A stretch of DNA of 40,486 bases from Stenomitos rutilans HA7619-LM2 (GTDB taxonomy: Bacteria; Cyanobacteriota; Cyanobacteriia; Leptolyngbyales; Leptolyngbyaceae), in assembly GCA_019358945.1 (NCBI GenBank), contig JAHHIE010000062.1:1-40486 (forward strand), in the 5' to 3' direction. The notes beneath the pieces were generated by a model, which saw nothing but the letters and a program-made list of their open reading frames with translations, searched no databases and was not told the DNA's origin. Numbering within the stretch: the first letter of the stretch is position 1; every line of letters begins with the position of its first letter. Positions 15,236 through 40,486 of the stretch are shown in pieces. The position numbers were made by a program, and so were the translations under genes.

Positions 15236-15238
15236 GGG

Positions 15239-15302: not shown

Positions 15303-15307
15303 TCCCC

Positions 15308-15838: not shown

Positions 15839-17260
<1,422 letters not shown>

Positions 17261-22860: not shown

Positions 22861-23600
22861 AAATTTTGTTCACGTGTCATTATCATCGCAATCCCAACGC
22901 TGGAGCCTTTGGTGTCATACCGATTTAAAGAATGACGGCTACAGATCAATCGGTGGGTAGGGGCAAGGCAATGCCTTGCCCCTACAGGATGTGTCGCATT
23001 TTCAATTCAGATTGGTATCACAAACCGCTTCGCATTGCTCAAATTGGCACCTATATCATTCGCAAAGGAGTGCATTATGCTGCGCCAGCGTTAAATACCA
23101 TGCTGGCTCGTTATCCCCAAGTGGAAGTGAGCTTTTTGGATACAGAATGCCCCGTCAAAAAAGCATATGCCGATTTTGATGTGGGGGTGCGCGATCGCGT
23201 GACCGTTGTGCCCACCGATGCCAACGAAACCCTACCTTCACTGCTCAAAGGGCATCACATTAAATTGTTTCCCACCATTTCCGAGGGGTTTGGAGTTGCC
23301 CTGGTGGAAGCAGTGGCGTGTGAACTGGCACCCATTACAACAGCAGCACCAGGACCGATGGAAATCGTGCGCGACGGGCATAATGCTGTTGTGATTCCCT
23401 GCCGCGATCAGATAGCGATCGAGCAGGCATTAGGGCGGTTAATCTGCGATCGACCCTATCTAGAAGGGTTGCGCCGTAATGCTTATGAAACGGCTCAAAG
23501 CTACAGTTGGTCTAATCTGGCTCAACAGGATCTCTCGTTGTATCAGCGAGCCTACGCGTTAAGGCAAAGTGCGGTTGCCATTAATCTCGGTCAGGGCTAA
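22857..23600 (+). pseudogene. Second glycosyltransferase gene, interrupted by MITE-like element B
   Basis: The start MKILFTCHYHRNPNAGAFGV (22857-22916) is a normal GT-B N-terminus and is cut immediately by element B. After the element the frame resumes at HKPLRIAQIGTYIIRKGVHY and runs through KLFPTISEGFGVALVEAVAC, ELAPITTAAPGPMEIVRDGH and the end of the protein. The middle of the N-terminal domain, perhaps 130-170 residues, is missing, so a deletion accompanied or followed insertion. A frame from 22932 through the element can still be read (about 222 residues) but would lack the acceptor domain. Confidence 0.75.
22917..23018. mobile_element. MITE-like element B, copy 2
   Basis: A 102-base copy in the same orientation and of the same length as 9542-9643, with one visible base difference (CAGATTGGTAT instead of CAAATTGGTAT). 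It carries the same internal GTAGGGGCAAGGC palindrome. It lies inside a glycosyltransferase gene, and the near-identity of the two copies suggests recent movement. Confidence 0.88.
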
Positions 23601-26263: not shown

Positions 26264-26581
26264 TCAGTTTCGGAACCATGAAGCAATCATAGATACTAAA
26301 CTAGGGGAACTGAAATCATATGGACAAACAATCATTGGATTAGGCAAAGATGATTCTCGAATTGATACCTTGACATCAACTTCAAGAAGTTCTCTCGTTA
26401 GCTTCTCTGCCAACTCTAGCTCGACTCCAGCAAGAAAGACACATGGACAGTGTTTACTGGAATAGTTGTAAAGCGTTTTTGTTTCCTTTAAACCCGTTCC
26501 TAATAGATTCCGTAACACACGAAGCACAGGAATATACTTTTCGGGAAACTGATCTACAACCACTTCATATCGTTTTGCCAC
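26264..26581 (-). CDS. Orphan L7/L12 C-terminal-domain-like protein
   Basis: The 105-residue protein resembles the C-terminal domain of ribosomal protein L7/L12: RYEVVVDQFPEKYIPVLRVL, RNLLGTGLKETKTLYNYSSK, ELAEKLTRELLEVDVKVSIR match the beta-alpha-alpha-beta-alpha-beta order and the GLGLKEAK helix of that domain. The L7/L12 N-terminal dimerisation domain and hinge are absent, so it is not rplL. Free-standing copies in other bacteria may bind translation GTPases or be domesticated adaptors. It lies between the TetR gene and the structural-like block and is not obviously part of either. Confidence 0.6.
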   Translation of the reverse strand: MAKRYEVVVDQFPEKYIPVLRVLRNLLGTGLKETKTLYNYSSKHCPCVFLAGVELELAEKLTRELLEVDVKVSIRESSLPNPMIVCPYDFSSPSLVSMIASWFRN

Positions 26582-26972
26582 TTTCCTTAACCGCCTCTAA
26601 TCGCTCTTTCAATTCTATACATGCTAAACCCACATGCTTACAGCCATATCAGCATTAAGCATAAATATGAACTAACGACAAAGATATCAAAATCTCGTGT
26701 GGAATGAAGATGGCTAACTATTAATAGATGAAAACTTTCCGCCTAAGATCCCAAATTGGATGGATAGGCAGAAACTTTCCGCCTATCTCTCCTAGCTTAC
26801 TGGACTAGAACTGGCATAAATCACCGTTCAGTTATAGTCTGCAACCCCGATTCTCTCGTTTCTGTTAGCTCCTACGCATAGGCTGAAAAGCCGATTCTTG
26901 CGTTGCACTTCTGCGGTCTGACGCAGAAGGGCAGGCATAGGGCACACTTGAGAAAGTTTTTAGGTATTTTTC
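26582..26972 (+). promoter_or_regulatory. Leader region of the structural-like gene block, with repeats and hairpins
   Basis: This 391-base gap lies just before the long rightward gene block. AAACTTTCCGCCTA occurs twice (26732-26745 and 26772-26785), 40 bases apart, and the second copy is the loop/arm of a hairpin GATAGGC (26763-26769) / GCCTATC (26781-26787). Nearer the genes are GGCTGAAAAGCC (26881-26892) and CTTCTGCG (26908-26915) / CGCAGAAG (26922-26929), an 8-bp stem with a 6-base loop. A late promoter, regulator sites or an antitermination leader are possible. Confidence 0.45.
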
Positions 26973-27269
26973 ATGACTACGATCACATCGGCTCAAGTGC
27001 CTCCCCAACTCCTCACCATAGAACAGTATTGCGCTTGGTCAGGCCTGCTGTTGCATCGGCTCAACCCTACGCTCAGAGTGTTGGAGACAGAGAACAATTC
27101 AGAGCTAGCCTGCACGGCTGCAACCTTCACCGCAGACGACAACACGGAACGCTTACTGCTGCGAATCAATTTGAAGCTAGATCCGAACTGGCAGGCTACA
27201 GCCCAAAAGCTATGGCTGGCAACGCAGGCATTTAGCAACACTGAAGCCCCATCTGGGTATTTGGCCTAA
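26973..27269 (+). CDS. Unknown protein, first gene of the structural-like block
   Basis: This encodes 98 residues beginning MTTITSAQVPPQLLTIEQYC with a Trp-rich pattern (AWSGLLLHRLNPTLRVLE, LRINLKLDPNWQATAQKLWL). There is no signal peptide or membrane segment. The ribosome-binding site is weak. Its TAA overlaps the next start as TAATG, so the 880-residue protein is translationally coupled to it. Function not recognised; in a virion block this position often holds a scaffold, chaperone or minor structural protein. Confidence 0.6.
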   Translation: MTTITSAQVPPQLLTIEQYCAWSGLLLHRLNPTLRVLETENNSELACTAATFTADDNTERLLLRINLKLDPNWQATAQKLWLATQAFSNTEAPSGYLA

Positions 27270-29911
27270 TGCTGACTTTGCGCCTTGAAACCCCAGTCGA
27301 ACTCGAATCAGGCTTCCCCTCGGAGCTAGCGACCAAATCGGCACCACCGCAGCCTGGACTACGCTTGATGTCGCCACAAGCTCCTGCTCCCGGCCCAGGC
27401 CCGTATGATGCTGTGTTAGGTGGGAAGGATGCGTACCGCCCACCACCGAGTGCAACGATTTCAGGCCCAACGGCCCCACGATCGCCCATTGGGCCGAGTG
27501 CGCTCAATGCAGCCGCAGAAGGAGCAGCCGTAGGGCCGTTGGCAAAGCTAGCAGGGCCGTTGTCTTTACTGCCTCAAACCCTTGACTCTGTTGGTCGTGC
27601 CGTTGACAGTTCAATCGATACGGGTTCAGCTTGGCGCGACTATTTCGGCGCAAAGGGGGATGAAGACAAGTATTTAGCCAAGCGGTTGAAACGGCTCTCA
27701 GACGACCCCTCGCAATCGATGAGTCCTTTCGAGTTGGAAGGGGTAAAGAACCGCATCAGAAAGCGGAATCCAAACGCCGTGCCTCCGTGGGTAAAGCCAA
27801 TCGACCCAAACGCTGGTAACCTCTCTGGGTATGGTGATCCGGGCAGTCTCTACAACGTAGTGATTCAGGTAAACGCTTACAACTACGACCCCTTCGGTGG
27901 TGAAAGACGTAGCACCTATGAAGGCCCTGCCCAAAATGGGCCGTTTAGAGGCCCCATTTTAGGAGTCACGATGGACCCCGCTGCTGAGGTGCAACAGAGA
28001 CTCTCAGGCACTGGTACGGTGATTCTGTCGCATGGAAACCCCGTGCAGCAGGTAGGGGTAGGACTATTCGACTACAGCCCTAATTCAAGGCGTGAAAGTA
28101 GTTCCATTGCTAGAGTGACAAGGCTGGACGGTCAACTCGTCCAGGGCACAGATGCGCCAACACAAAACACCCCTTCTATTCCCGCTACGTTCAATCAATC
28201 GCCGCTGCTTTTATCACCGATTCCAGAGGCACTCAACCCGCAAAGCCTTCCACAATCGCCAACACTGCAACCGCAGAAACAGGGCGCGGCACAACCGCAA
28301 AAACTGCAACAACCGCAGAAGTTAGGGCAACCGCAGGCACAAAAACAGCCGCAAAACTTACAGCAACCTCAGAACTATATCCCTCCGCAATTAGTTCCAA
28401 ACCTGCCTGCAAACTACCCAACATCGACGACTCCCACGCCTACTACAACACAGCAAAATTTAACAGGAGGAAACAACCCCTTCCCTAAAAATTATCAACA
28501 GGTAGGTACACCACAAACACAGCAGACGCAACAACCGCAGACACCTCAGACAATGCCCCCTAGATGCGAAGATCCATGCATAGCCGAATTGCAAAAGGGG
28601 CAAGATGAAGCAAAAGATTTTCTAGATAAATTGCTTGATTTTTTAACTGATTTTGCCGATCAACAGCAAGAATATCAAGTTGCACAGCAACAGCAACAGC
28701 AAGACAACACCACTAAAACGACTATTAGCGTTCCTGTATGCAGTTGCAATGAAGATGGTACGGCTTCACTTGAAATGATGGATATCGAGTTACCTAATGC
28801 AATTGCTGATTCAGTTAAAGAGCAATTTGAGGTAATGGCTAACATCCAATCGGCACAATGCCAAATTCAACGCCACACCGAGCGATCCTATAACGTTTTA
28901 GGTGGGGACATTTGGTTTAAAGACCCAGAGGGCAGGACTCCAGAGTACAAAGTGAAGCTGGAACGCAGGCTGAAGGAAGTTGGTACGGTGTTTGGTTTTC
29001 CTGCCATCCCAGATGAAGATCCAACGGCTGTTGCCATTGAGGAAGAGCAGGCACGGTTAACGGGCCAACCCATACCGGGACAGGTGAAAATCAAAAATCT
29101 AGTCAGTTTGATTAACCTCTACACCTCAAACCTTTATCACCGTGCAGGGTACCAGGGCCTACCTGCAAGCGTGCCTAAAACATTGCTCGGTTATACCGAC
29201 AATGATGATCCAGAAATCATCCAAGACTTTGCTACTTACTTTGTTTGGTTTGTGAAACAAGTGGATGGTTTAATCGGGAAGTTTCCCATCAACATCACGA
29301 TTGAAGATGTTGATCCATTAACAGAAGGGAATCAAACCAAGCAGGTTGAACTACCGAACATCTCTGAAGCACTGGCAGAAATGTACGGCTTAAACATCTC
29401 TAGCTCAGTGAACGGCGATGTCGCAGTTAACTTCTTAATGAGGCTTGCATCAGAGGTGATTGCAACTAAGAATAGTAGTCTCATCACGCAAGACTATGTA
29501 AGAGCTAACGCTGCCTTTTTGGGCTATAAAGGCAACCCCGCAAGACGTGAAATCAACTATAGTTTTGATGCCGCAAAATTAGGCTCATTAGATGAATTTC
29601 TAAACGAGTCTAAAGGTTATGTAGTGGGTTGGGAAGAAGACGATAAAGAGTCTATTGTTGGCTTCTTACAGCGGATTGTCTTTAGTGCTGGCATCATCAA
29701 AGCAGCCTTCTTTAGGGACAAAAACCGACTAGCAGAGCTACAAAAAGAAATTGAAAGCATGATGACCGGTGATAAGACCGCTTCAGATGCCGAATGGGAG
29801 GCACTGTTAGCACTCATCAATGGTCCGACAAACTACTTCAATAAGGACTCAATTCCTCAGCCCAGAGTGAGAAACAAACCCGCAGATCCACCGCAGGAGC
29901 CAACCCCATGA
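27269..29911 (+). CDS. Large unrecognised protein with Pro/Gln-rich linker
   Basis: The 880-residue protein has four parts by eye. Residues 1-110 are Pro/Ala/Gly-rich. Residues 110-310 form a moderately conserved-looking domain (VKNRIRKRNPNAVPPWVKPI; NVVIQVNAYNYDPFGGERRS). Residues 310-430 are a low-complexity Gln/Pro tract built on (Q)PQKLQQPQ-type repeats. From Cys-Glu-Asp-Pro-Cys near 433 there is a coiled-coil (IAELQKGQDEAKDFLDKLLD; QQEYQVAQQQQQQDN), a CSCNEDG motif, and a long helical C-terminal domain. There are no membrane segments and no enzyme motif. It overlaps the next gene by 4 bases (ATGA). It could be a large minor virion protein, but sequence alone does not prove that. Confidence 0.7.
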   Translation: MLTLRLETPVELESGFPSELATKSAPPQPGLRLMSPQAPAPGPGPYDAVLGGKDAYRPPPSATISGPTAPRSPIGPSALNAAAEGAAVGPLAKLAGPLSLLPQTLDSVGRAVDSSIDTGSAWRDYFGAKGDEDKYLAKRLKRLSDDPSQSMSPFELEGVKNRIRKRNPNAVPPWVKPIDPNAGNLSGYGDPGSLYNVVIQVNAYNYDPFGGERRSTYEGPAQNGPFRGPILGVTMDPAAEVQQRLSGTGTVILSHGNPVQQVGVGLFDYSPNSRRESSSIARVTRLDGQLVQGTDAPTQNTPSIPATFNQSPLLLSPIPEALNPQSLPQSPTLQPQKQGAAQPQKLQQPQKLGQPQAQKQPQNLQQPQNYIPPQLVPNLPANYPTSTTPTPTTTQQNLTGGNNPFPKNYQQVGTPQTQQTQQPQTPQTMPPRCEDPCIAELQKGQDEAKDFLDKLLDFLTDFADQQQEYQVAQQQQQQDNTTKTTISVPVCSCNEDGTASLEMMDIELPNAIADSVKEQFEVMANIQSAQCQIQRHTERSYNVLGGDIWFKDPEGRTPEYKVKLERRLKEVGTVFGFPAIPDEDPTAVAIEEEQARLTGQPIPGQVKIKNLVSLINLYTSNLYHRAGYQGLPASVPKTLLGYTDNDDPEIIQDFATYFVWFVKQVDGLIGKFPINITIEDVDPLTEGNQTKQVELPNISEALAEMYGLNISSSVNGDVAVNFLMRLASEVIATKNSSLITQDYVRANAAFLGYKGNPARREINYSFDAAKLGSLDEFLNESKGYVVGWEEDDKESIVGFLQRIVFSAGIIKAAFFRDKNRLAELQKEIESMMTGDKTASDAEWEALLALINGPTNYFNKDSIPQPRVRNKPADPPQEPTP

Positions 29912-31476
29912 GCCTCGGCCTCTCCGTGGGAGTGCTCCTCTCACGCAAAATTAGGGCCAATGCCGCCGCCGGGAAGACAGGCAGTGAACTACTCAACGCC
30001 ATCACAACGACTGTCGTTGCACCCCGCAAAATCACCAGCCTGACAAAGCTCAAAGCTGAAGAATCAGGCGGCTTGATTCAGAACGTTTGGAATGCGGTAT
30101 CTAAGTTTGCAGGCTTCATTGGTGGGTTGATCAAAGCCGTTGCCTTCTCTGCGACAAAGATCTGGGGTTGGGTTGTGGGTGCGATCGAGCGCTTAAAGTC
30201 CTTCAACTGGAACGCGACCGACGAAGAGCTTAAAACGATGGTGGACGCTCAGAATCTGCGTCTCGCTGGCTTATGGGGTGGTGTGGTCGGTCAGGGTTTC
30301 GGCTGGCTGGCTGGTATTGGAGTGGGCTATGGTGTGGCGTTTCTCTGCCCGGTCGTGGGTGGTGCTGCCCTGGCGCGGCTGGTGGCAACCAAAGTGGGCA
30401 AAGAAGCGATGGAAGAGCTTTTACCGACGCTGCGGAATGCCCTGGCTCAAACAGCCGGGGCCGTCGCTACCAGTGCCCTGATCGGCGTGTACACCAACTA
30501 TCGACGGTTCCTCAAGAATGCCCCTGAAGCGTTCCTCAATACGGTGTTTGGTGCCGACAGCGCCAACTTCATCAAGAACGTGTGGGGGGCCAAAGGTGGC
30601 CCGGATATGAGCTTCAATCATCAAATGGATGAAGCGATTGAGAACATCCAAAACAAAGCGCTGCAAGAGTTCTTAGAAGAGTTCTTCGATGAAGCGTGGG
30701 ATAGTTTCACAGAAGCAGGCTTCATCGTTGCTCAGGAGATAGACGAAGCCTTTGCCCAACACAAAGCCTCACAGAAGGAACTGTTAGGGCCAGAGCGCAC
30801 CATCGAAATCATTCCCGATCGGGAAGCGGAGGACGAAAGCCTCAAGCTCATCCAGATGCCGCAACAGTTGGCACTGCCAGCCATCCAGCAGACTATCAAC
30901 ACCCAACGGCTGCTTTATAACCGTGATGTGGGAGAGGTAATCGGCACACCAGCCGCAAGTATGGGCCGTGCGAACTTCCAACTGCGTCAACTGGTGATTG
31001 TGTTCCAGACACGGCCTGAACCCCCTTGGGTCGAGTTGACGGGCAAGCGCTGTAAACGGGTAGAGGTGCAAATCCCAGATCTCAAAGTGGGCGTGAGTTG
31101 GGAAGACATCAAAACGGCGGCTAACCCTTATGATTGGGGCCGCTTCAGAGCCACGGCCAACATGAACAACCGCCGTCAAATGGCTGTTTATGGCGCAACG
31201 GCACAAGAGGCAGAAACCAAGCTCAGAAAGCTAGCTCTGCTCTCAACCTCAGACATTCTCACGCTGTCGATATCGGAGGAACAAGAGCGGCCAGAGAAGC
31301 TTAAAAAACGTCCTACACGCGTGTATCCCACCTATGCCACGCTGATCAATCGCCACAACACCATCGACGGTCAAGGACGAACAAGCATCGATAATCGCAC
31401 CTATGACGAGAAAACAACTCGGTTTGCACTATGGACAGTCACCGAGCCGCGCAACTTCCCCACACTGACCATATGA
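29908..31476 (+). CDS. Large unrecognised protein with glycine-rich membrane segments
   Basis: The 522-residue protein has hydrophobic, glycine-rich stretches at about residues 67-92 (FAGFIGGLIKAVAFSATKIW-GWVVGA) and 119-158 (LAGLWGGVVGQGFGWLAGIG, VGYGVAFLCPVVGGAALARL). These look like membrane-inserting helices and glycine zippers. A helical acidic section (ALQEFLEEFFDEAWDSFTEA) follows, then a soluble C-terminal domain of about 180 residues (QLVIVFQTRPEPPWVELTGK; YATLINRHNTIDGQGRTSID). It is coupled to the 880-residue gene by ATGA. A role in crossing or lining a membrane (penetration or DNA-delivery protein, virion membrane protein) is plausible inference. No homologue named. Confidence 0.7.
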   Translation: MSLGLSVGVLLSRKIRANAAAGKTGSELLNAITTTVVAPRKITSLTKLKAEESGGLIQNVWNAVSKFAGFIGGLIKAVAFSATKIWGWVVGAIERLKSFNWNATDEELKTMVDAQNLRLAGLWGGVVGQGFGWLAGIGVGYGVAFLCPVVGGAALARLVATKVGKEAMEELLPTLRNALAQTAGAVATSALIGVYTNYRRFLKNAPEAFLNTVFGADSANFIKNVWGAKGGPDMSFNHQMDEAIENIQNKALQEFLEEFFDEAWDSFTEAGFIVAQEIDEAFAQHKASQKELLGPERTIEIIPDREAEDESLKLIQMPQQLALPAIQQTINTQRLLYNRDVGEVIGTPAASMGRANFQLRQLVIVFQTRPEPPWVELTGKRCKRVEVQIPDLKVGVSWEDIKTAANPYDWGRFRATANMNNRRQMAVYGATAQEAETKLRKLALLSTSDILTLSISEEQERPEKLKKRPTRVYPTYATLINRHNTIDGQGRTSIDNRTYDEKTTRFALWTVTEPRNFPTLTI

Positions 31477-31530
31477 GGCACTTAAGAAATATTTACAGTG
31501 TCCTACCAGTGTCAATAAGCGGGTATGGCG

Positions 31531-31556
31531 GAACCCTACGGGTTCACTCAATTTTT
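31531..31556 (+). terminator. Terminator-like hairpin before the 180-residue protein gene
   Basis: GAACCC (31531-31536) pairs with GGGTTC (31540-31545) around a TAC loop, followed after a short gap by ATTTTTT. It lies 54 bases after the 522-residue gene. It would reduce read-through and separate the downstream genes as their own transcript. Confidence 0.5.
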
Positions 31557-31666
31557 TACATACAACTATATCGGCCAATTCTCTAAGCAAAAACTCTGAA
31601 CTCTCCACCAGGCGGGTGGGATAGACTCCAAAGCATCAACGTTTTGCAATTTAGGAGAACAGGGCT

Positions 31667-32209
31667 ATGGCTCGTCGCTATTCCCAGATTAAGCGTGGGG
31701 CAGAGTATGAAAAAGCGCTCGACAACTATGTTGACTACTTAAAGAATATTGAGACGCGGCCCACCAAGCGGTTACAAGGCGGCGTGAGAGGGGCCAGACG
31801 TGAGACGTTACCTGCGGCTCTGCGTCCCTTTGGGGCTGATTTGGCGGCTGGAGTCTACTTGGCGACACGGGTGGGTCGGGAATCCTCTCAGGAGATTGGC
31901 TCAACAGTAGCTGGTCGGTTGTACACCCAAGGTGCGAACCTGGCTGCTGCCACAAAGATGCAAGGGTTTAGACCTGCCAAAGCCACTGCGTTCCGTGGTA
32001 CTGGTGCGGCAGCTTATGTGCAATCGAAGGTCACGAAGCTTTATTACCTCAAGTACACAGGCGATAGCTTCTCCACGCCCTTTGGTGCTACTTCGGATGC
32101 TGAGGAAGAATTAGCCGGTGGCACGGCAGTGAAGAACGCCATCATTACCCTGTTTGGTGCGGCTGACATCAAGCGGGTCTCCATCTCACCCGAAAAGGTG
32201 CCCGTCTGA
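31667..32209 (+). CDS. 180-residue basic protein; candidate major structural protein
   Basis: The protein begins MARRYSQIKRGAEYEKALDN, has a basic N-terminus and a Gly/Ala/Thr-rich body (YTQGANLAAATKMQGFRPAK; FRGTGAAAYVQSKVTKLYYL), and shows no signal peptide, membrane span or enzyme motif. Three features suggest high expression: a 190-base leader isolated by a terminator-like hairpin, an AGGAGA Shine-Dalgarno 8 bases before the ATG, and first position in a coupled gene run (TGATG overlap with the next). In a virion block this would suit the most abundant coat or nucleoid-packing protein. I do not recognise any described capsid fold from sequence. Confidence 0.7.
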   Translation: MARRYSQIKRGAEYEKALDNYVDYLKNIETRPTKRLQGGVRGARRETLPAALRPFGADLAAGVYLATRVGRESSQEIGSTVAGRLYTQGANLAAATKMQGFRPAKATAFRGTGAAAYVQSKVTKLYYLKYTGDSFSTPFGATSDAEEELAGGTAVKNAIITLFGAADIKRVSISPEKVPV

Positions 32210-32460
32210 TGATCGCTACCGATCTACTGGACACTCCCCTCATCGTCCGTCCTGGCATGGATGATGAGGAGATTGAAGCGCTGTGGCAACAGACCTATCG
32301 ACGGGCAAAGATGACGCAAGCCTTTTTAGACCGTGAGATTGATGTAGAAACCTACTTTGATTTCATGGCTCAAGCAGGTTACGAGCCATCCGAGCTAATG
32401 GACGCAGCCGAGTCAAACCTTGAGTTCGTGATGCAGCAAGGACTTGAGCTAGAGCGATGA
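32209..32460 (+). CDS. Small acidic protein (83 residues)
   Basis: This is an acidic helical protein: RPGMDDEEIEALWQQTYRRA, FLDREIDVETYFDFMAQAGY, ELMDAAESNLEFVMQQGLEL. It overlaps both neighbours (TGATG upstream, ATGA downstream). The strong negative charge next to a basic 180-residue protein suggests a scaffold or chaperone pair, which is inference from charge and order only. Confidence 0.6.
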   Translation: MIATDLLDTPLIVRPGMDDEEIEALWQQTYRRAKMTQAFLDREIDVETYFDFMAQAGYEPSELMDAAESNLEFVMQQGLELER

Positions 32461-32906
32461 GCCGTCAGTTTCCAGACTTCAGGGATACGCTCGAATGGAA
32501 CTTGGTGAGTCGTTCGAGCTACCAAGCCGTCAATAACGTCAACGTCAAAGATCGCTTACCAGCTCGTACCTTTTTAATTGAGAACAGCCATGTGCTCATC
32601 ATTGGTGTTTCGTCTCAGTCCGCGCGATCGACTTGGCGGACGGGAGGCTGGGCGGCACAGGTGTTGCCATTCCTCCCTAGCACTACGTCTCAATATGTGG
32701 CCGCCGTGCAGAGTTCCCGGCGCTGGCTCAGGCTACGCACGTTGACGCTGGTGGTGTTTCCCAAGGTACTGCCAACCTATTTTCTAGAGTTGAGCTTTCC
32801 CTACTATTTTGATGATGTGTCCGTCGAAATCTGGCGCTATGACGGGCGTGACCTTGATACGTTTGACCGCATTGATCAACTTGAAGCGAACCTTGATACG
32901 GTGTGA
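32457..32906 (+). CDS. Unrecognised beta-rich protein (149 residues)
   Basis: The protein is rich in alternating hydrophobic residues (ARTFLIENSHVLIIGVSSQS; LRLRTLTLVVFPKVLPTYFL; ELSFPYYFDDVSVEIWRYDG), suggesting a beta-sandwich. The segment from LPTYFLELSF to VEIW resembles, loosely, equivalent segments in the next two proteins (SLTLQIEV at the middle of the 206-residue product; SLKLTIQVE in the 363-residue product). The start is ATGA-coupled to the 83-residue gene. A virion surface or vertex protein is possible. Confidence 0.6.
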   Translation: MSRQFPDFRDTLEWNLVSRSSYQAVNNVNVKDRLPARTFLIENSHVLIIGVSSQSARSTWRTGGWAAQVLPFLPSTTSQYVAAVQSSRRWLRLRTLTLVVFPKVLPTYFLELSFPYYFDDVSVEIWRYDGRDLDTFDRIDQLEANLDTV

Positions 32907-33523
32907 ATCATTGGGAACTCTTAGTAAGTCTTGAAATCACCAAAGATTGGCAATTCACCCCCATTTGTGACGGGCTTTTCTTTCGGTTTCGCTATGTGTC
33001 AGTGCAGAATTTTTCTCACATTTTAGTGGCTCAAGCTCAGCTTGATGATGAGCTTGAGTTCTTTGGACAGCAACGATTACAGGTTAAGTCAGCCCTCGAT
33101 ATTCTCGAAATTCCTGCCCCTTTTTTCTTTGCTGCACGACGTTTAGCGATTCGAGGCTTTGAAATCAAATCGCCTCGCTATGAACCACCCTCTTTAACGC
33201 TACAAATCGAGGTAAATACAATGCCCTTCTCTAGTGACCCAGGTTCTCAAAGCTCTAATGCTGGCACTACTACCACAGTGGCCGCTAGTATCACTTCGGT
33301 TTCTTTGCTGACGGCGAACTCCAGCCGCAAAGGTTTGACCGTTTATAACAATTCGGCTCTAGCCACGTTGTATGTAGGTTTTGGGGCAACAGCTAGCACA
33401 ACTAACTTTGCCGTCAAGATCGCCCCAAATACAACATGGGAATGCCCACAGGACTATGACGGGCCACTTTCAGGGATTTGGAGCGTGGCGAATGGTGGCG
33501 CGCAAGTGACGGAGTTTATCTAG
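32903..33523 (+). CDS. Two-part protein with a C-terminal capsid-fibre-like beta domain
   Basis: The GTG start at 32903 overlaps the previous stop (GTGTGA). Residues 1-105 are an unrecognised beta-rich domain (LLVSLEITKDWQFTPICDGL; IPAPFFFAARRLAIRGFEIK). From MPFSSDPGSQSSNAGTTTTV onward the protein has a small beta-sandwich: SLLTANSSRKGLTVYNNSAL, ATLYVGFGATASTTNFAVKI, APNTTWECPQDYDGPLSGIW, SVANGGAQVTEF. The pattern N.xRKGLxVYNNS...LYVG.G..A....F.xKxAPxxxWE...Y.GxxSGIW..A.GxxxVTE is familiar from phage head-fibre and virion decoration proteins. The two halves look like a fusion of units that could exist separately. Confidence 0.7.
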   Translation: MNHWELLVSLEITKDWQFTPICDGLFFRFRYVSVQNFSHILVAQAQLDDELEFFGQQRLQVKSALDILEIPAPFFFAARRLAIRGFEIKSPRYEPPSLTLQIEVNTMPFSSDPGSQSSNAGTTTTVAASITSVSLLTANSSRKGLTVYNNSALATLYVGFGATASTTNFAVKIAPNTTWECPQDYDGPLSGIWSVANGGAQVTEFI

Positions 33524-33536
33524 GGATGAACGCGTT

Positions 33537-34628
33537 ATGAGTTGGGAAACTGTTCTTAGTGAGACCTATGCGGTGAATCCAGCAACGGAACCGCTGACAC
33601 TGCCCTATGACTTTCAGCCTTATTACCGCTTGATTGTGACGGCTGACTTGTTGACGGGGTTGGGCGTGAGAGAACCCGTTCTAGGATACTTACGGCAACT
33701 TTTGATGATACCTAGCATTGGCCCGGTGAAAGGGCGCACACTGGCTTTAACGCCCTTTCAGCAATTGTTCATACCTTCAACGGAACTGCCTTACAAGTTG
33801 ATTTATCAACCCGTGCAGAGGGATTTCAGCTTGAAATTAACCATTCAGGTGGAATCAACCATTGTGAGCACGGAGGGGACGGCTGATAACGGGCCAGTTT
33901 TAACGGCGATCGCGGCACTGCAAGAGCAGTTGGAGACATTACCAGGGACTGCCGAACCGATCGATTACGTGCCCCTGTTCACGCAAGTGCTTGCTGCACT
34001 GACGACGCAGGGCCAAGCTGTGAACGCCATCAGCAATCAAGTGGCAAGCGGCTTTGATGGACAGGTTGCGATCGCTACTGACCTGGCGGACGTGCAAGAC
34101 CAACTCACAACGCTTGTTGCCAGCGTCAACCAAATCCGAACCGTGTTGTCTCTGCCTACTCCCACCCCGACCCCGACTCCGACTCCGCCCCCACCAGCAT
34201 CACCAACCGTAGCGGGTGTCGCGTACACAGTCGCGCAGTCCTCTCGACGGCTGGACAATAATTTCTTCTTAGCCACGTATGCCAGCCTGACCGATGGCGA
34301 TTTTTCAACCGGGGGCGTGACTGCTGATGAGGGCACTAACTGGCTACAGGCGACTTTTCCCTACAAAGTGACCATTGCTCAAATCACGCTGAGCGGTGGC
34401 CGCATTGATGGGTATGGCGAATCGGATTTAGGGCAGAACGGGGGGATGTTGCAATATACCGTGGATGGTTCGACCTGGATTGATTTCCGAAGTGTTTCGG
34501 ACATTCCCGGCGCTGGGGCACCGCTACCTAAAACGGTTGCGTTCAACCTGTCACCAGCCATAGAAGCAACGGGTGTAAGGCTTTTCAAAGTGGGTGTGGT
34601 AGCCGTACCACGCTTTGAATTTCAGTAG
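33537..34628 (+). CDS. Spike-like protein with coiled coil, Thr-Pro hinge and discoidin-like tip
   Basis: The 363-residue protein has a beta-rich N-terminal domain (1-115), a helical coiled-coil-like section (about 120-200; TAIAALQEQLETLPG, QVAIATDLADVQDQLTTLVA), a rigid hinge of Pro-Thr repeats (about 205-222) and a C-terminal domain (about 225-363). That last domain has the layout of an F5/8 type C (discoidin) module: ATYASLTDGDFSTGG, NWLQATFPYKVTIAQITLSG, and MLQYTVDGSTWIDFRSVSDI. Discoidin modules bind carbohydrates or lipids on cell surfaces. An anchor, trimeric stalk, hinge and binding tip is the standard plan of a receptor-binding spike. The position at the end of the coupled block agrees. 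Confidence 0.75.
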   Translation: MSWETVLSETYAVNPATEPLTLPYDFQPYYRLIVTADLLTGLGVREPVLGYLRQLLMIPSIGPVKGRTLALTPFQQLFIPSTELPYKLIYQPVQRDFSLKLTIQVESTIVSTEGTADNGPVLTAIAALQEQLETLPGTAEPIDYVPLFTQVLAALTTQGQAVNAISNQVASGFDGQVAIATDLADVQDQLTTLVASVNQIRTVLSLPTPTPTPTPTPPPPASPTVAGVAYTVAQSSRRLDNNFFLATYASLTDGDFSTGGVTADEGTNWLQATFPYKVTIAQITLSGGRIDGYGESDLGQNGGMLQYTVDGSTWIDFRSVSDIPGAGAPLPKTVAFNLSPAIEATGVRLFKVGVVAVPRFEFQ

Positions 34629-34675
34629 AAACGGTCAGAGGGTGCGATGAAGTCAAATAACCTAGTCACAGAATC

Positions 34676-34876
34676 ATGACAGAGCCAACCTTCTGGATCG
34701 ACAGTGCGAAACTGAAGCCGATCGCCGCCGCGCTTTTCAGTTTGGCAAACCTTTTAGAGGACGCTTACCCTGGTTTGGGTGCCCAGTATGGTTGGGCACG
34801 CATCACGGACGCGAGTGAGCTAGCGAAAGCCCTGGAAGCGATGAGCGAGGCAACCAAGCCGGATGGATTGCAATGA
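34676..34876 (+). CDS. Small unrecognised protein (66 residues)
   Basis: The protein (MTEPTFWIDSAKLKPIAAAL, FSLANLLEDAYPGLGAQYGW, ITDASELAKALEAMSEATKP) is helical and mildly acidic. It has no membrane span or signal. Its stop overlaps the start of the next gene (ATGA), so the two form a pair. In this position, just after a spike and before a membrane-coil protein, it may serve in lysis or assembly, but nothing in the sequence identifies it. Confidence 0.55.
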   Translation: MTEPTFWIDSAKLKPIAAALFSLANLLEDAYPGLGAQYGWARITDASELAKALEAMSEATKPDGLQ

Positions 34877-35295
34877 ATTTAGATGCAAGCTTCATCACTG
34901 CGGTGGGTGGGTTGGCTTCTGGGGCTTTTGCTGCTTACTGGACGGCCAAAACGTTCTACTTGAAGCGACAGGACGAACTTCGAGAGCGCCAACGCCAGGA
35001 GCTAGCAGCAGCCCAGGCCGAAATCGATCGTCAGAAAGCCCAACGTCAGGCAGAACTGGATACCTACGCAGAAGGGAAAACAAAGGAATATGCCGCGCAA
35101 CGTGACTTCAATCACTTGATGAGGCAATATGAGGCACTGTCGATGAACCTCAACACGCTGCACGAGTTGGGCGATCGCAGACTTGATGGGATTGAGGATG
35201 ATTTGCGCGATGTGAAAGGACTGCTTCAGATGTTGGCTGTTGCTGTAGGGCAGACAGAAACGGGCATTCAGCGCTATTTGAAGCGTGAGGACTAA
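34873..35295 (+). CDS. Membrane-anchored coiled-coil protein (140 residues)
   Basis: An N-terminal hydrophobic segment (about residues 6-28, SFITAVGGLASGAFAAYWTA-KTF) is followed by a long charged coiled coil (about 30-75, ELRERQRQELAAAQAEIDRQ; KAQRQAELDTYAEGKTKEYA) and a helical end (LDGIEDDLRDVKGLLQMLAV). This is the shape of small phage holin-accessory, spanin-like or superinfection membrane proteins, but no lysin gene is adjacent. It ends 4 bases inside the convergent 172-residue gene. Confidence 0.6.
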   Translation: MNLDASFITAVGGLASGAFAAYWTAKTFYLKRQDELRERQRQELAAAQAEIDRQKAQRQAELDTYAEGKTKEYAAQRDFNHLMRQYEALSMNLNTLHELGDRRLDGIEDDLRDVKGLLQMLAVAVGQTETGIQRYLKRED

Positions 35296-35810
35296 TGACG
35301 ATCTCGTTCTAGGTCGTAAATAACTTTCTCCCACACCCATTGCTCAGTTTTGTGTGGATTTAGCCTGCGAGTGTTAGCTAGTAACCGATCGACAGTTTCA
35401 GCTTCACCATTTACCAGCGAAAGTAGTTGATTTCGTACCTCTCTAGCAACAGTAGGTTTTTTAGCTATTTTTGCGTCTACCAATGCATGAAGACGCTCTT
35501 CTTCCATGTCTGCAAGTGCCGATTCAATGCACCATAGCTCTGATTTGTCAGGGTTAAAAAGCTTGATGTAGTTGAGCGTTCGCTCTGTTTTATCAACTCC
35601 AAGAATGTCGATTAATTGCTGTTTTTTGGTTGATGGTAAAACAGTTGGAGACATTCTCATCGGAGACTGGTAAACTTTGCGCTTTGGTTGCACTTTTGGT
35701 TGCACTTGTAGACGTATTCCTTGAACAATTGAAGCGATACCAACTAGAGCCATGAAACCCCAAGCACCAAAAATGATTGCTACCAAGATGCTGATGAGAA
35801 GCAAAGTCAT
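35292..35810 (-). CDS. Membrane-anchored protein, paralogue of the gene at 2233
   Basis: The 172-residue protein has a strongly hydrophobic N-terminus (about residues 2-32, TLLLISILVAIIFGAWGFMA-LVGIASIVQGI), a basic linker, and two copies of a helical motif. The first is KQQLIDILGVDKTERTLNYI...NPDKSELWCIESALADMEEE; the second, NQLLSLVNGEAETVDRLLAN, TRRLNPHKTEQWVWEKVIYD, LERDRH. The second copy matches the only copy in the 121-residue chromosomal protein at 2233. The duplication within the protein and the second gene elsewhere suggest a mobile or expanding family. It is antisense to read-through from the structural-like block. Function unknown. Confidence 0.65.
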   Translation of the reverse strand: MTLLLISILVAIIFGAWGFMALVGIASIVQGIRLQVQPKVQPKRKVYQSPMRMSPTVLPSTKKQQLIDILGVDKTERTLNYIKLFNPDKSELWCIESALADMEEERLHALVDAKIAKKPTVAREVRNQLLSLVNGEAETVDRLLANTRRLNPHKTEQWVWEKVIYDLERDRH

Positions 35811-35928: not shown

Positions 35929-36366
35929 CTAATCTTTGTACTCGTCCGGTCTCTTGTCTTTGGGATAGTTGCGGCGTGAGTCTGATGAGCCTTTATCGGT
36001 CTCCTCTGCCTTTGTATAACAACCATCTTCATCCCACGATCCACGCTTCCCATAGTCTCTAACAGCTTCATTCCCTACACGTTCTTCGTCATCAGTGTAA
36101 ATGGTGCGGCGGCCTCCGTGACCATCGTTGGCAAACAGCCTCCACCACGATTGGAAGTAGTTGGTGATGCCTTCGAGCGGGATATGGACGGTGCCACCAC
36201 TGACGAGTAGCCCGCGCATGATGCCGCTACCGTCAAAGGTCTCCTCCAGGATGACCCCGTTCCCAGCATCGATAGGCTTGAGAACAGCCGTATGCTGTTT
36301 GCCTGCAACGGTGTACTCATAGATGTGGACGAGGGTAAGCTGCAAGTCTTTCAGGTTCCACTTCAT
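35929..36366 (-). CDS. Unrecognised acidic protein (145 residues)
   Basis: From ATG at 36366 (MKWNLKDLQLTLVHIYEYTV) the protein has a beta-rich N-terminal half (AGKQHTAVLKPIDAGNGVIL; GGTVHIPLEGITNYFQSWWR) and a charged, probably disordered C-terminal half (YTDDEERVGNEAVRDYGKRG; SSDSRRNYPKDKRPDEYKD). The start overlaps the stop of the upstream 103-residue gene (TAATG on the minus strand), so the two are coupled. Function not recognised. It is probably expressed separately from the late block because it is on the opposite strand. Confidence 0.6.
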   Translation of the reverse strand: MKWNLKDLQLTLVHIYEYTVAGKQHTAVLKPIDAGNGVILEETFDGSGIMRGLLVSGGTVHIPLEGITNYFQSWWRLFANDGHGGRRTIYTDDEERVGNEAVRDYGKRGSWDEDGCYTKAEETDKGSSDSRRNYPKDKRPDEYKD

Positions 36367-36677
36367 TAGTTGGCCCCCCATGACTCTGCGCTTGCTGCAT
36401 AGCCATTAGCGCTATACGCACCATACGCAGCCTCACCAACAGTTGCAGTTGCAGCACTATCAGCTTGAGAACTGGCCTGTCGATAGTTGGTGCCATAGCC
36501 ATGCAGGTCACGGTAGACAGAAGCACCAGCCTGCTCTGCGGCGCGGTTGAGGTCTCCCCAGCGGTAGACGCAGTTGCCTTCACTGAGGGCAGGAGGAGGG
36601 GACGTGATTAAACCGGGCAATTGTGCCCCTAAAATGGCGGCGATCGTGGCGATCACCAAGCGTTGAAAAACTGACAT
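36366..36677 (-). CDS. Small exported protein (103 residues)
   Basis: The protein starts with a signal peptide (MSVFQRLVIATIAAILGAQL then PGLITSPPPALS) and a mature part rich in Ala, Tyr, Gly and Ser (GNCVYRWGDLNRAAEQAGAS; ATATVGEAAYGAYSANGYAA). AGGAGC lies 9 bases upstream of the ATG. As a leftward gene expressed beside the repressor, it could be a lysogenic-conversion or superinfection-exclusion factor acting outside the membrane. That role is inferred from position only. Confidence 0.6.
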   Translation of the reverse strand: MSVFQRLVIATIAAILGAQLPGLITSPPPALSEGNCVYRWGDLNRAAEQAGASVYRDLHGYGTNYRQASSQADSAATATVGEAAYGAYSANGYAASAESWGAN

Positions 36678-36776: not shown

Positions 36777-36806
36777 GCTGGAGTCTCATTAGGCTCCAGC
36801 ATTTTT
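36777..36806. terminator. Bidirectional terminator overlapping the repressor stop codon
   Basis: GCTGGAG (36777-36783) pairs with CTCCAGC (36794-36800), followed by ATTTTT on the right and preceded by TTAAAAC on the left, so it can stop transcripts both ways. The stop codon of the leftward XRE gene (36789-36791) lies in the loop. Confidence 0.7.
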
Positions 36807-37094
36807 GTATGGGCCTAAGTCGTCAGGCAGTTCCTCAATAGATAAACCGACAGAATCCAGCAACTTCTTTAGATTTTTGAGTTGCGGAATTGTAAACATT
36901 GCAGGTGTTATACCGCGTTCCCATCGGCTTACTGTGGCAATGCCTACGCCAAGGCGCTGTGCCAATTCCTGTTGAGAAATTGGAGCGCCGTGACCTTCCA
37001 TGTTTCCTATTAGCTCTCGAAGGAGTTTCAAGGGTGATTTGCCCTCTTCGACGTTGAATCCACTGGAATTTATCATATCATCGTAATCAATCAC
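36789..37094 (-). CDS. XRE-family (cI/Cro-like) repressor
   Basis: The 101-residue protein has a Cro/C1-type HTH at about residues 37-90: SQQELAQRLGVGIATVSRWE, RGITPAMFTIPQLKNLKKLL. There is no peptidase or dimerisation extension, so it is a minimal single-domain regulator. A GTG at 37094 gives the longest form; ATG at 37076 (MINSSGF) is an alternative. Neither has a good Shine-Dalgarno. Twin operator palindromes cover the GTG and the next 20 bases. The gene faces away from the five small rightward genes and the primase-helicase, the arrangement of a temperate immunity switch. Confidence 0.85.
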   Translation of the reverse strand: MIDYDDMINSSGFNVEEGKSPLKLLRELIGNMEGHGAPISQQELAQRLGVGIATVSRWERGITPAMFTIPQLKNLKKLLDSVGLSIEELPDDLGPYKNAGA

Positions 37095-37758: not shown

Positions 37759-37994
37759 GCGACGATTTAGCGTTTCCGGTCTATCAAGTTGACCCGGTGC
37801 ACCCAGGGCTAACAAAACGCGAACTCCTCGCAGCGATGATCTTTCAGGCAATGATTCGCAATGATTCAGACCTGCCGTTCGTTAACCCAGAGACAGATCC
37901 AGTGGTGACAGAGTTGATTCCTGTCTGGGCTAAAACTGCTGTCAAAGCTGCTGATGTCCTCATTGCCGCACTCGCAGAGAAGGAGGAAGGATGA
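37755..37994 (+). CDS. Early small protein (79 residues)
   Basis: The protein (MSDDLAFPVYQVDPVHPGLT, KRELLAAMIFQAMIRNDSDL, TELIPVWAKTAVKAADVLIA ending ALAEKEEG) has the layout often seen in phage ORFs of the form GLTKRE.LAA..L.......A..AV..AD.LI.AL, a common small early or pre-replication protein type. It is coupled on both sides by ATGA overlaps. Its biochemical role is unknown. Confidence 0.6.
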   Translation: MSDDLAFPVYQVDPVHPGLTKRELLAAMIFQAMIRNDSDLPFVNPETDPVVTELIPVWAKTAVKAADVLIAALAEKEEG

Positions 37995-38140
37995 AAGGTT
38001 ACAGCCTCCTGCCTACCTATCAGCACGACTACCACTGCCTTTCAGAGGTACTGCTGAAGCTGGTCTCCCTGACTCCAGCCCCAAGGCAGCTAAACCTTTT
38101 GGACGGGAACGATACAGCAGCATCGAGGTGGTATCGATGA
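37991..38140 (+). CDS. Early micro-protein (49 residues)
   Basis: The ATG at 37991 overlaps the previous stop (ATGA) and the TGA at 38138-38140 overlaps the next ATG. The product, MKGYSLLPTYQHDYHCLSEV then LLKLVSLTPAPRQLNLLDGN and DTAASRWYR, is not hydrophobic and is not recognised. The perfect fit between two coupled neighbours is the main evidence that it is translated. Confidence 0.55.
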   Translation: MKGYSLLPTYQHDYHCLSEVLLKLVSLTPAPRQLNLLDGNDTAASRWYR

Positions 38141-38340
38141 GCGATCGCACCACCCAAACCCTGACCAACCTGACCTATGAAGTCACAGCGATCGCTGCGG
38201 AACTCTACAAGTTCTACCAGCGCTTGCACCAAGTGGCCCCCAACCTAGTCAGTGCCAGCGAAGTGCACGACGCAGAGCAACGGCTCAACCGACTGCGAAC
38301 CATGTTCAAAGGGCTTCAGCAGCGAGCCAAACAAGATTGA
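38137..38340 (+). CDS. Early small helical protein (67 residues)
   Basis: From the coupled ATG at 38137 the protein is MSDRTTQTLTNLTYEVTAIA, AELYKFYQRLHQVAPNLVSA, HDAEQRLNRLRTMFKGLQQR, AKQD: amphipathic helices with no enzyme motif. A longer reading from 37954 would overlap two coupled genes and is rejected. It is the last gene before a strong terminator. Confidence 0.6.
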   Translation: MSDRTTQTLTNLTYEVTAIAAELYKFYQRLHQVAPNLVSASEVHDAEQRLNRLRTMFKGLQQRAKQD

Positions 38341-38467: not shown

Positions 38468-40486
38468 ATGCAACAATTCAACATCAGAGAGTATGTCGAA
38501 TTTAACACGGACGCTAGAGCCATCTGCCCTAGTTGTGCTCAGTCCAAAGGCGCAAATCACCGCAAGCTCAATCTGAGCCTCGTGACATCAGGAGAGTACG
38601 AGGGTGCCTACAAGTGCTTTGCAGGTTGCACACCGCAAGACATCCGTGCGGCCTTGGGCGTGAGTGAGAACCGCATCATCCCCACTGCACTGGCACAACC
38701 AAAAGCCACCGCTGGTAGAACAACTGTCACAGTCTCACCGCAGAAAGTCAAAGAAGCGCACGATCGCCTCATGCAATCGAATGGCCCTGCTAAGGACTGG
38801 CTCCATCAGCGTGGCTTTGATGACGGCCTGATTGCCCGCTATCAGTTGGGAGTAGTGAGAGCCAAAGCAGGCGATCGCCATCTGCCAGCGATCAGCATTC
38901 CGTTGCCAAACCATGACGGCACCGCTTACTACCAGAAAAAGCGCGTGGCTCCGTGGCTGTCAGCAACAGAACAACCGGATGGTTATCAGCCCTGGTCACA
39001 AGCCGGCATCCCTGCACGTACCTTTTTCACATACCTACCCGTAGAGGCAACGTCTACATGGCTCTGTGAGGGGGAGTGGGATACCATGCTGCTAGGGCAG
39101 CACGTCAGGCAGGCAGAGCTACCCGTCGCAGTGGCGTGCTTCACCGCTGGCTGTAGTAACGTGCCACCGCAGCCGGAACTAGAGAAGCTGCCCGGTGACG
39201 TGTATGTCTTTTATGACCGCAACGACAAACCGACCAAGACAGGCTTGATTCCAGGGGATGAGGGAGCGAGAAAAGTAGCGGCGGCTCTGGGCGATCGCTG
39301 TCGTCTTGCCCAGGTGCCGATGACGGATGGCTGCGAGATCCACGGCTGGGATGTGAGTAATGCGCTTGCTGTTGGGTTTCAAATGGCTGACTTTGTAGCA
39401 GCCGCCCAAGCTGCGACACAAGCCACAGAGTTGGGGGAGAAAGCAAAGCCCAAAACTCAAAACTTATTGAGATCGCGGCTCGTCACGAATGCTCAGTTGA
39501 TGGCAACCGCACCCGATTATGTGGAATGGCTCGTCCCTGACCTGCTACCAGCGAATGAACTGATCATGCTGGCAGCAGGCCCCAGGGCTGGCAAATCACT
39601 CCTGTCGATGCTCTTAGCGAAGAGCGTAGCCACAGGTGAATCATTCCTCGATCGACCCGTGACGCAGGGAGTCGTCCTCTATGTGCGGTGTGAAGATGCC
39701 CCGGTCAAAATTAAGCAGCGACAGCTTGCACAGGGTTGGGCTGAGGATATTCCGGTCTACTGGCTTGATCGCTTCAAGCTCTCCGAAACCAGTCAGTTAC
39801 GCGAATTGGCTGAAGAGCTAGACGCACGGCTCATCGTCCTCGATACGCTTTCTCGCATTCGGGACGATGGCACAACTGAATCCAGTGCCGAGATGAGCCG
39901 AGTCCTTGAGCCACTGCAAGAACTAGCCGAGGATGTTAACTGCTCCATCGTGTTGGTGCACCACACCGGGAAAGTGAATGTAGACAATGCGAACGCGATC
40001 GACGTGTTCGACACCATTCGCGGTTCTAGTGCCATCAGAGCGACGTGCAGAGGCTCAATGGTGTTAGCTGCCGATAGCGACTGTTACCGCCTCTGTGCGG
40101 AGAATGGCTACGGCAAAATTGACCTCAAAATTCGGCTTGACTGCGCAACGTTGGAATGGAGATTACTAGGCCGTTGGACGGAAGCAATCTCATCTGACCA
40201 GCGCACCACGGTAGAGGAGTACATCAACAAGGTTGGTCAGGCCACGCTTGATCAGATTTTCGAGGATACGCAAATCCCGAAACCATCGCTGTATAAGGTT
40301 CTTAGCCGCTTGTCGCGCGAAAACTTCATCGTCAAGTCAGGCAACCGTCGTCAAGTGCTCTATAGAACCCATTTGAGATCTCAAGGGGAGGCAGCAAGCC
40401 GCTTCAGCATCAGCCTGACAAAGCAGAGGTTGATTTTGGTCGTGGCGTTGTCCAAAGTTCGTTCAAAGTTCTTGACCAGGATTTTA
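38468..40486 (+). CDS. Primase-helicase (zinc finger, Toprim, RepA-like RecA-fold ATPase), runs off the window
   Basis: The ATG at 38468 opens 673 codons with no stop to the edge. Residues 20-54 form a primase zinc finger (CPSC...CFAGC: Cys20, Cys23, Cys50, Cys54). The Toprim-like domain is at about 195-260 (WLCEGEWDTMLLG; GDVYVFYDRND with the D-x-N-D metal site). A RecA-fold ATPase starts near 350: Walker A in LAAGPRAGKSLLS (about 368-378), Walker B in RLIVLDTLSRI (about 453-460), and sensor IVLVHHTGK near 497 with RGSSAIRA after it. A winged-helix-like end follows (ATLDQIFEDTQIPKPSLYKV). This is the layout of bifunctional replication proteins of phages, satellites and plasmids, showing the element starts its own DNA replication. 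Confidence 0.85.
   Translation, partial: MQQFNIREYVEFNTDARAICPSCAQSKGANHRKLNLSLVTSGEYEGAYKCFAGCTPQDIRAALGVSENRIIPTALAQPKATAGRTTVTVSPQKVKEAHDRLMQSNGPAKDWLHQRGFDDGLIARYQLGVVRAKAGDRHLPAISIPLPNHDGTAYYQKKRVAPWLSATEQPDGYQPWSQAGIPARTFFTYLPVEATSTWLCEGEWDTMLLGQHVRQAELPVAVACFTAGCSNVPPQPELEKLPGDVYVFYDRNDKPTKTGLIPGDEGARKVAAALGDRCRLAQVPMTDGCEIHGWDVSNALAVGFQMADFVAAAQAATQATELGEKAKPKTQNLLRSRLVTNAQLMATAPDYVEWLVPDLLPANELIMLAAGPRAGKSLLSMLLAKSVATGESFLDRPVTQGVVLYVRCEDAPVKIKQRQLAQGWAEDIPVYWLDRFKLSETSQLRELAEELDARLIVLDTLSRIRDDGTTESSAEMSRVLEPLQELAEDVNCSIVLVHHTGKVNVDNANAIDVFDTIRGSSAIRATCRGSMVLAADSDCYRLCAENGYGKIDLKIRLDCATLEWRLLGRWTEAISSDQRTTVEEYINKVGQATLDQIFEDTQIPKPSLYKVLSRLSRENFIVKSGNRRQVLYRTHLRSQGEAASRFSISLTKQRLILVVALSKVRSKFLTRIL

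Follow-up and report, generated by a model that had tools for sequence, protein, structure and literature searches.

What kind of genetic element carries the tightly packed block of rightward genes at positions 26973–35295 of a contig from the cyanobacterium Stenomitos rutilans HA7619-LM2? The window analyzed here is that entire contig (C54, 40,486 bp), one of 119 in a 7.28-Mb genome. An initial annotation, made from the letters before any database search, had proposed a virus, a satellite, or a secreted particle. Comparison with relatives shows that the gene block is a conserved module of a mobile, temperate, virus-like element, which bears out the general direction of that proposal but does not decide among its three forms. 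The elements form a widespread, apparently undescribed cyanobacterial family and are probably viruses or virus parasites that present virus catalogues have missed.

The block comprises ten open reading frames on the forward strand, g1 to g10, rather than the nine counted at first (Table 1). Six junctions overlap by 1–4 bases, as had been seen: g1/g2 and g4/g5 by 1 base, and g2/g3, g5/g6, g6/g7, and g9/g10 by 4. Gaps of 190, 13, and 47 bases precede g4, g8, and g9, respectively. The same genome holds related elements on contigs C99, C3, and C15. On C99 the order of g1–g6 and g8–g10 is kept and g7 is missing; the identity to the window is 92% for g3, 95% for g4, 86% for g9, and 91% for g10. The ratio of nonsynonymous to synonymous substitution rates (dN/dS) between the window and C99 was determined for g2, g3, g4, g5, g8, g9, and g10 only, with synonymous sites near saturation. 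It is low for g3 (0.046), g4 (0.029), g5 (0.079), g9 (0.076), and g10 (0.042), and higher for g2 (0.24) and g8 (0.20). Strong purifying selection acts on several of the block proteins, and the block is not a chance arrangement, because C99 keeps the gene order and the ratios of g3, g4, g5, g9, and g10 lie at 0.03–0.08.

The C3 element carries genes like g7, g8, and g10 and like n1, n2, and n3, which lie to the right of the block in the window (n2 95% and n3 99% identical). After these genes come one with an AAA_25 domain (E 1.2e-28) and one of integrase type; g3 (family F1) is absent from the element. On C15, divergent g2 and g3 genes are followed by an integrase on the opposite strand (E 5.5e-21). 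Between the attachment-site (att) repeat and the block of the C3 element (L003 1761–5657) lies apparent cargo, which includes LysR and FAD-binding enzyme genes; an enzyme-like gene at L003 1987–3018, itself unscanned, also falls within this region.

Six complete relatives are bounded by direct repeats of 21–61 bp, one copy overlapping a transfer RNA (tRNA) gene near the integrase. The repeats measure 49 bp in the C99 element (tRNA-Met, 15,493 bp apart), 47 bp in L075 (tRNA-Glu, 15,478 bp apart), 61 bp at 95% in L081 (tRNA-Met, 12,576 bp apart), 21 bp in C3 (tRNA-Glu, 14,505 bp apart), 50 bp in G309 (tRNA-Cys, 18,287 bp apart), and 57 bp in G198 (tRNA-Leu, 15,374 bp apart). In L019, L083, L084, and L087, a gene of the integrase family F9 lies near a tRNA gene, with no long repeat within the stretch examined. 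In genome G309, the 18,288-bp contig C5 is an exact circular permutation, at 100% identity, of the element integrated in contig C7. The two repeats are reduced to one, an att site that joins both element ends, and contig C5 represents the excised circular form, which was assembled in addition to the integrated copy. G198 contains two identical 15,374-bp copies in tandem, with the 57-bp repeat in three copies, and one chromosome of G102 holds two element copies (L114 and L154) at different sites, 94% identical over 7.6 kb.

Two further relatives are circular plasmids: unnamed14 of Tolypothrix sp. PCC 7601 (20,757 bp) and pMIC7113.08 of Allocoleopsis franciscana PCC 7113 (20,803 bp), the latter with F1 split in two. 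Both contain a site-specific integrase, and both are typed non-mobilizable. When 135 proteins of six elements were scanned against Pfam and PHROGs (the 25 commonest of 66 and 104 families being listed), no relaxase was among the Pfam families listed. A conjugative or mobilizable element is unlikely. A clustered regularly interspaced short palindromic repeat (CRISPR) array in a genome of the genus of G309 contains, among 13 spacers read, one that matches the core of the G309 gene of the g2 family (F0) at 28 of 31 bases, and the same site matches in two other elements at 22 of 24 and 25 of 28 bases. Other spacer matches amounted to one 15-base word, and one of ten short matches whose surroundings were fetched lay within an array. 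Mobility is supported by integrase, excisionase-like, replication, and repressor-like genes, by the att repeats, the circle, the tandem copies, and the spacer match. A stable chromosomal locus, the alternative raised at the outset, does not describe the block, which is conserved within a mobile element that has replication and integration genes.

Around the G309 circle, the att site is followed by F11 (the family of g1), F0, F1, a leftward F8 gene, F15, F3, F59, F20, and F113, then by small genes, an FHA-domain protein (E 7.5e-16), F21, and leftward genes including F6. The circle ends with a VapE-like protein (E 9.6e-72) with DUF3854, a small excisionase-type helix-turn-helix (HTH) gene (E 1.4e-4, under the cut-off), and the integrase F9; ten of its proteins were Pfam-scanned. 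In G198, a peptidase M15 gene closes the block (E 5.5e-16; one copy scanned). Different elements carry different, exchangeable replication genes (AAA_25, VapE-like, and others). The F9 gene of C99 matches an integrase family of PHROGs (E 6.8e-8), and the F9-like gene of the Microcystis aeruginosa NIES-298 plasmid P1 (L182, NZ_CP046059.1), 43% identical over its full length, is annotated as a tyrosine-type recombinase. The F6 gene of the window, not Pfam-scanned itself, has 45% identity to an annotated HTH regulator of the same plasmid.

Searched as a single sequence, g3 was detected in 57 of the 388 genomes sampled from the class, spread over 39 of 160 genera; the six further genomes from the genus of the window had no match. 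A profile of 40 F1 relatives detected the family in 29 of 386 genomes of a phylum sample, and a genome-contig scan with a single-sequence query found one locus. The last gene, g10, is present in 8 of 97 genomes searched, host genome included, and homologs of g1 that are 25–42% identical occur in C99, L020, L022, L023, L024, and L028. Genes were called at 56 loci, and their proteins were clustered into families. These loci were picked by a match to g3 (42), g10 (11), g2 (1), or g7 (1), plus the window, so that the frequency of F1 among them is uninformative; the family counts are lower bounds, the gene caller having lost F1 in L075 and L110, where the g3 search finds it. Of the 51 loci in which F1 was called, 43 have F0 immediately ahead of it on the same strand, at a distance of −53 to +70 bases; among the others, F0 is separated or inverted in five and not called in three. 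Within the fetched stretches, which are often cut by contig ends, an integrase (F9/F16) accompanies F1 in 21 of the 51 loci, a replication gene (F18/F22/F29/F41) in 19, and F6 in 17. A tree of 40 F1 sequences requires at least 21 changes of host family, compared with a minimum of 14, a shuffled mean of 27.5, and 23 in the lowest of 500 shuffles. The F1 family shows some inheritance with much transfer.

The two largest block proteins had been described as unfamiliar, and for g2 and g3 Pfam and PHROGs give nothing reliable (best E 0.022 and 0.17); in NCBIfam, g2 has no match and g3 only one of E 0.036, at half that model's cut-off bits. The reported lack of terminase, portal, capsid, protease, tail tube, and tape-measure genes also holds, since none of these families matches the ten block proteins at E up to 0.1. 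Weaker PHROG matches exist for g8 (tail protein 0.14, tape measure 0.15, connector 0.33) and for g2 (tail assembly chaperone 0.39, no tape measure). The discoidin-like tip is recovered in g8 as a match to F5/F8 type C, PF00754, under the Pfam cut-off (E 7.9e-4), and the C-terminal part of g7, the fibre-domain protein of the initial annotation, matches phrog_30212, of unknown function (E 2e-5). The spike-like protein does not close the block as had been stated; g9 and g10 follow it, and g10 has a weak match to the Rz-like spanin family phrog_2466 (E 2.1e-4).

By eye, the first part of F0 varies between Pro/Gln-rich, Cys-rich, collagen-like, and long coiled-coil forms, and the core is conserved. 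The Gly/Ala-rich stretches of F1 are moderately hydrophobic, with a family mean hydropathy of up to 1.58 over 19 residues in the windows printed; the suggestion of a membrane-containing particle has these stretches of g3 as its single basis. F1 is short or split in some loci, and a few copies contain stop codons. The slot of g4 (F17) is occupied in many other elements by F3, a family of about 200 residues with two similar halves (by eye). Profile comparison gave no match between F3 and F17 or between F7 and F15, despite the common slot of each pair. From its sequence, g6 is probably beta-rich, judged by eye. The AlphaFold2 models were unusable, with a mean predicted local distance difference test score of 34.5 for g4 alone and 30.9 for g3 with one relative. 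Profile searches of the PDB with eight alignments revealed no trusted solved relative; the best match, of alignment A12 to a 'Tet4 Variant' chain, reached E 0.0018, with no single stretch passing alone.

Homology to tailed phages, also considered at the outset, is limited to one fibre-type domain and weak tail- and spanin-type matches. The C-terminal domain of g7 recurs at the end of a protein of about 268 residues near F0 in many elements (hhalign probability 97.7), and it is found in six viral contigs and three tailed-phage records of equal length. Its neighbors in viral contig L119 include terminase, portal, and protease genes; those in L120 and L123 include tail-fibre or endolysin-like genes. 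The tail protein family phrog_17517 matches 2 of the 135 element proteins (best E 3.1e-5). A coiled-coil F0 of L102 matches tape-measure families weakly (best E 9.4e-7), as coiled coils easily do, and a pMIC7113.08 protein weakly matches a minor tail family (E 9.4e-4). One weak FtsK/HerA P-loop match under the cut-off (E 2.2e-4) falls in an ATPase of the Tolypothrix plasmid, and no Pfam capsid family was seen in the proteins scanned. The terminase family phrog_2, searched in seven host genomes, has no match within any element; the window's genome has two strong terminase matches, both on contig C70 and neither within an element. In P1, some 200 bp (11602–11803) show 89–90% identity to Ma-LMM01-type tailed phages of Microcystis, a similarity that may reflect a link between satellite and helper. 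The best BLASTn matches of P1 include uncultured phage contigs, according to the accessible part of its description (PMC12510456).

We tentatively favor a reading in which the block is the particle or adsorption module of a temperate, tRNA-integrating element of about 12.6–21 kb that is satellite-like, supplying its own attachment and entry parts and borrowing head and packaging from a tailed cyanophage. The relatives display an integrated form, an exact tandem, and a single-att circle, together with helicase/primase-like and repressor-like genes and an integrase-type gene beside tRNA-overlapping repeats. The integrase would insert and excise the element; on induction the circle would replicate, and the block would be expressed from its left end as a late operon. 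The F0/F1 pair, g4 and g5, the beta-rich and lectin-like g6–g8, and the spanin-like g10 would make up the host-recognition and DNA-entry part of the particle. The variable g2 and g8 would face the receptor, their faster change being as expected of receptor-facing parts, and the conserved F0 core and F1 would hold or deliver. Either g10 or the M15 peptidase may aid release. The patchy spread across host families, the g7 domain common to tailed phages, the P1 stretch resembling phages, and the M15 peptidase of G198 are in line with such an element.

Several observations weigh against this reading. No particle has been seen, no helper is known, and no capsid-redirecting or packaging gene was recognized in the proteins scanned. 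G309 and G198, which give the best signs of activity, show only weak phrog_2 matches (E 2.2e-4 and 1.8e-6), which point to no clear resident helper with that terminase family. Neither g3, the F1 alignment, nor the F0 core was found in IMG/VR viral contigs, and a scan of viral contigs for g6 found no relative; these scans used short peptide patterns, which distant relatives may escape. The DNA of the window and G309 elements has no match in phage records at megablast sensitivity. The Pfam integrase matches are under the cut-off in C99 (E 2.8e-4), G309 (E 0.0049), and C3 (E 7.4e-6, just under), and the window copy itself has an interrupted replication gene, no integrase, and no att site.

The same evidence bears on an autonomous temperate virus with an unrecognized capsid, in which F0, F1, F3/F17, and F7/F15 would form a complete, perhaps non-tailed or membrane-associated virion without a helper. 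This is a serious possibility, to be held with more reserve. The presence of as many as ten structural-like genes, among which the F0-F1 pair recurs, the lack of a strong terminase match in G309 or G198, and the spanin-like and M15 peptidase genes favor it, as does the finding that g2, one F1, and one F3 have no match in phage records; the elements are also of a size seen in small non-tailed viruses. However, the proteins scanned include no recognized packaging ATPase or capsid family, F1 is missing from the C3 element and F0 uncalled in three loci, the viral contig scans found no F0/F1, and structure prediction yielded no usable model. We rank the satellite-like form slightly above the autonomous virus because no packaging ATPase, portal, or capsid is recognizable. 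That the elements are a new lineage of temperate cyanobacterial viruses, with orphan F0 and F1, small orphan coat proteins (F3/F17 and F7/F15), and a novel virion architecture that present virus detectors do not find, is less likely than not, though a genuine possibility.

A plasmid-like integrative element whose block encodes a cell-surface or secreted adhesion structure, for attachment, kin recognition, or DNA uptake and without any virion, would account for the lectin-like domains of the family (discoidin in g8, and malectin), the FHA-domain proteins that the elements also carry, the circular plasmid forms, the lack of F0/F1 finds in the viral contig scans, and the cargo of the C3 element. 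It is unlikely in view of the non-mobilizable typing of both plasmids, the g7-type domain common to tailed phages, and the spanin-like and M15 peptidase genes. A further reading, as remnants of degenerate tailed prophages, would fit the interrupted replication gene of the window copy, the few split or stop-containing F1 copies, and the weak tail-type matches. This explanation was set aside as largely refuted by the excised circle in G309 and by purifying selection (dN/dS 0.03–0.08); complete elements with att repeats exist, g2 and one F1 have no phage-record match, and we regard such remnants as very improbable.

The right end of the window element is out of view. To the right of the block lie three leftward genes, the leftward F6 gene, the small rightward p11, and then p12, which has 75% identity to L020 as far as about position 40408. 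The window ends in a 126-bp sequence that is shared at 100% with the ends of contigs C43, C76, and C104, and no p12 match was found in the fetched ends of these contigs. The 126-bp sequence is an assembly break at a repeat, probably an insertion sequence within p12; because the contig end is shared and the partner contigs have no p12 match, the replication gene of the window is probably interrupted by an insertion sequence. There are no tRNA genes in the window, and a T-arm pattern has 13 matches compared with 8.1 expected, a number reached in 6 of 100 shuffles and little above chance.

Table 1. Features of the block and of the sequence to its right, in window coordinates
Feature	Positions	Strand	Description
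g1 (98 aa)	26973–27269	+	First block gene; relatives in small protein family F11
g2 (880 aa)	27269–29911	+	Family F0; Pro/Gln-rich variable N-terminal part and conserved core of ~160 residues near the C terminus
Conserved F0 core	29228–29713	+	33 invariant columns among 13 sequences
g3 (522 aa)	29908–31476	+	Family F1; N-terminal half with Gly/Ala-rich hydrophobic stretches, C-terminal half conserved
g4 (180 aa)	31667–32209	+	Family F17
g5 (83 aa)	32209–32460	+	Family F14; small acidic protein
g6 (149 aa)	32457–32906	+	Family F4; 25 loci
g7 (206 aa)	32903–33523	+	N-terminal domain and C-terminal fibre-type domain of ~95 residues, common to tailed phages
g8 (363 aa)	33537–34628	+	Family F24; Pro/Thr linker and discoidin-like tip
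g9 (66 aa)	34676–34876	+
g10 (140 aa)	34873–35295	+	N-terminal hydrophobic stretch and charged helical part
n1 (172 aa)	35292–35810	-	Family F21
n2 (150 aa)	35929–36381	-	Counterpart in the C3 element
n3 (103 aa)	36366–36677	-	Counterpart in the C3 element
Repressor-like gene	36789–37094	-	Family F6; plasmid members annotated as HTH regulators
p11 (128 aa)	37954–38340	+	Family F34
p12	38468–40408	+	Replicative helicase/primase-like (AAA_25; DnaB-like); PF13481, E 4.9e-32; truncated by repeat and contig end
126-bp sequence	40361–40486	+	Contig end

To the left of about 26.6 kb, the genes scanned are mostly ordinary chromosomal ones. At 14369–17260, NifH/frxC-family and nitrogenase-component-1-like genes lie close together, which we take to be protochlorophyllide reductase subunits, probably. 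The 105-residue product of a leftward gene at 26264–26581 contains the C-terminal domain of ribosomal L7/L12 (E 5.7e-7). The sequence at 26716–26916 is a dispersed repeat with many partial copies in the genus; a 98.5% copy lies on contig C4, with no element genes in the 16 kb fetched there, and a 92% copy lies in the C3 element upstream of its first block gene. Another short repeat has two copies in the window that are 99–100% identical (9542–9643 and 22915–23021), and it is present on contig C4 too.

About one in seven of the cyanobacterial genomes sampled encodes g3, yet no copy of the F0/F1 core turned up in the viral contigs and phage records scanned. If the elements are particle-borne, they would constitute a hidden route of gene transfer among cyanobacteria, with either a new virus architecture or a new type of satellite. 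A direct test is possible in two named strains that hold the element as a circle, Tolypothrix sp. PCC 7601 and Allocoleopsis franciscana PCC 7113.

In their way of working the elements resemble a temperate phage or a satellite. Among known systems, tailed phages (Caudoviricetes) have in common with the elements the C-terminal domain of g7 and the weak tail- and spanin-type matches. Unlike them, the elements have no recognized terminase, portal, capsid, or tail tube family, and their tape-measure matches are weak or on a coiled coil. Judged at the level of sequence, membership in the tailed phages fails, as no terminase large subunit, portal, or HK97-type capsid is recognized. Tectivirus-like and corticovirus-like non-tailed viruses, of which temperate forms are known, are similar in genome size; in contrast to these, no double-jelly-roll capsid or packaging ATPase was recognized in the elements from sequence.

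The elements resemble phage satellites, such as phage-inducible chromosomal islands (PICI), P4-like elements, phage-inducible chromosomal minimalist islands (PICMI), and tycheposons, in traits characteristic of that group: size class, tRNA-gene integration beside an integrase and excision as a circle (in relatives), an own primase/helicase (VapE-like in G309), a repressor-like gene, and the lack of a full virion gene set. In contrast to phage satellites, they have no recognized packaging or capsid-redirecting gene and no identified helper, and they carry the large conserved structural-like F0/F1 module, which was not found in the phage records searched. Like the elements, P1, a circle of 17,272 bp, encodes VapE together with a series of hypothetical proteins, so far as the available part of its description goes (PMC12510456). 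It shares the integrase family and the F6 repressor family with them, and its 218-residue protein matches family F37 (26%, E 8e-10). By profile, however, P1 has no F0 core, F1, F3, F4, F7, F15, or long F2, and it is a sister lineage, outside the family by the F0/F1 criterion.

Among the papers listed in searches of the open-access PubMed Central literature, with subscription papers mostly outside the search, none gives an apparent description of the element family. The Charybdis elements are circles of about 4.6 kb from a marine archaeal host, with the double-Greek-key protein Gp3. In the accessible portion of their description (PMC12324425), they appear as virus-like mobile elements that lack hallmark genes and carry a structural module resembling a protrusion, for which the authors discuss a virus or a satellite. 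Size, host, and genes as described there differ from those of the cyanobacterial elements. Of published ideas, the Charybdis elements come closest to the elements described here.

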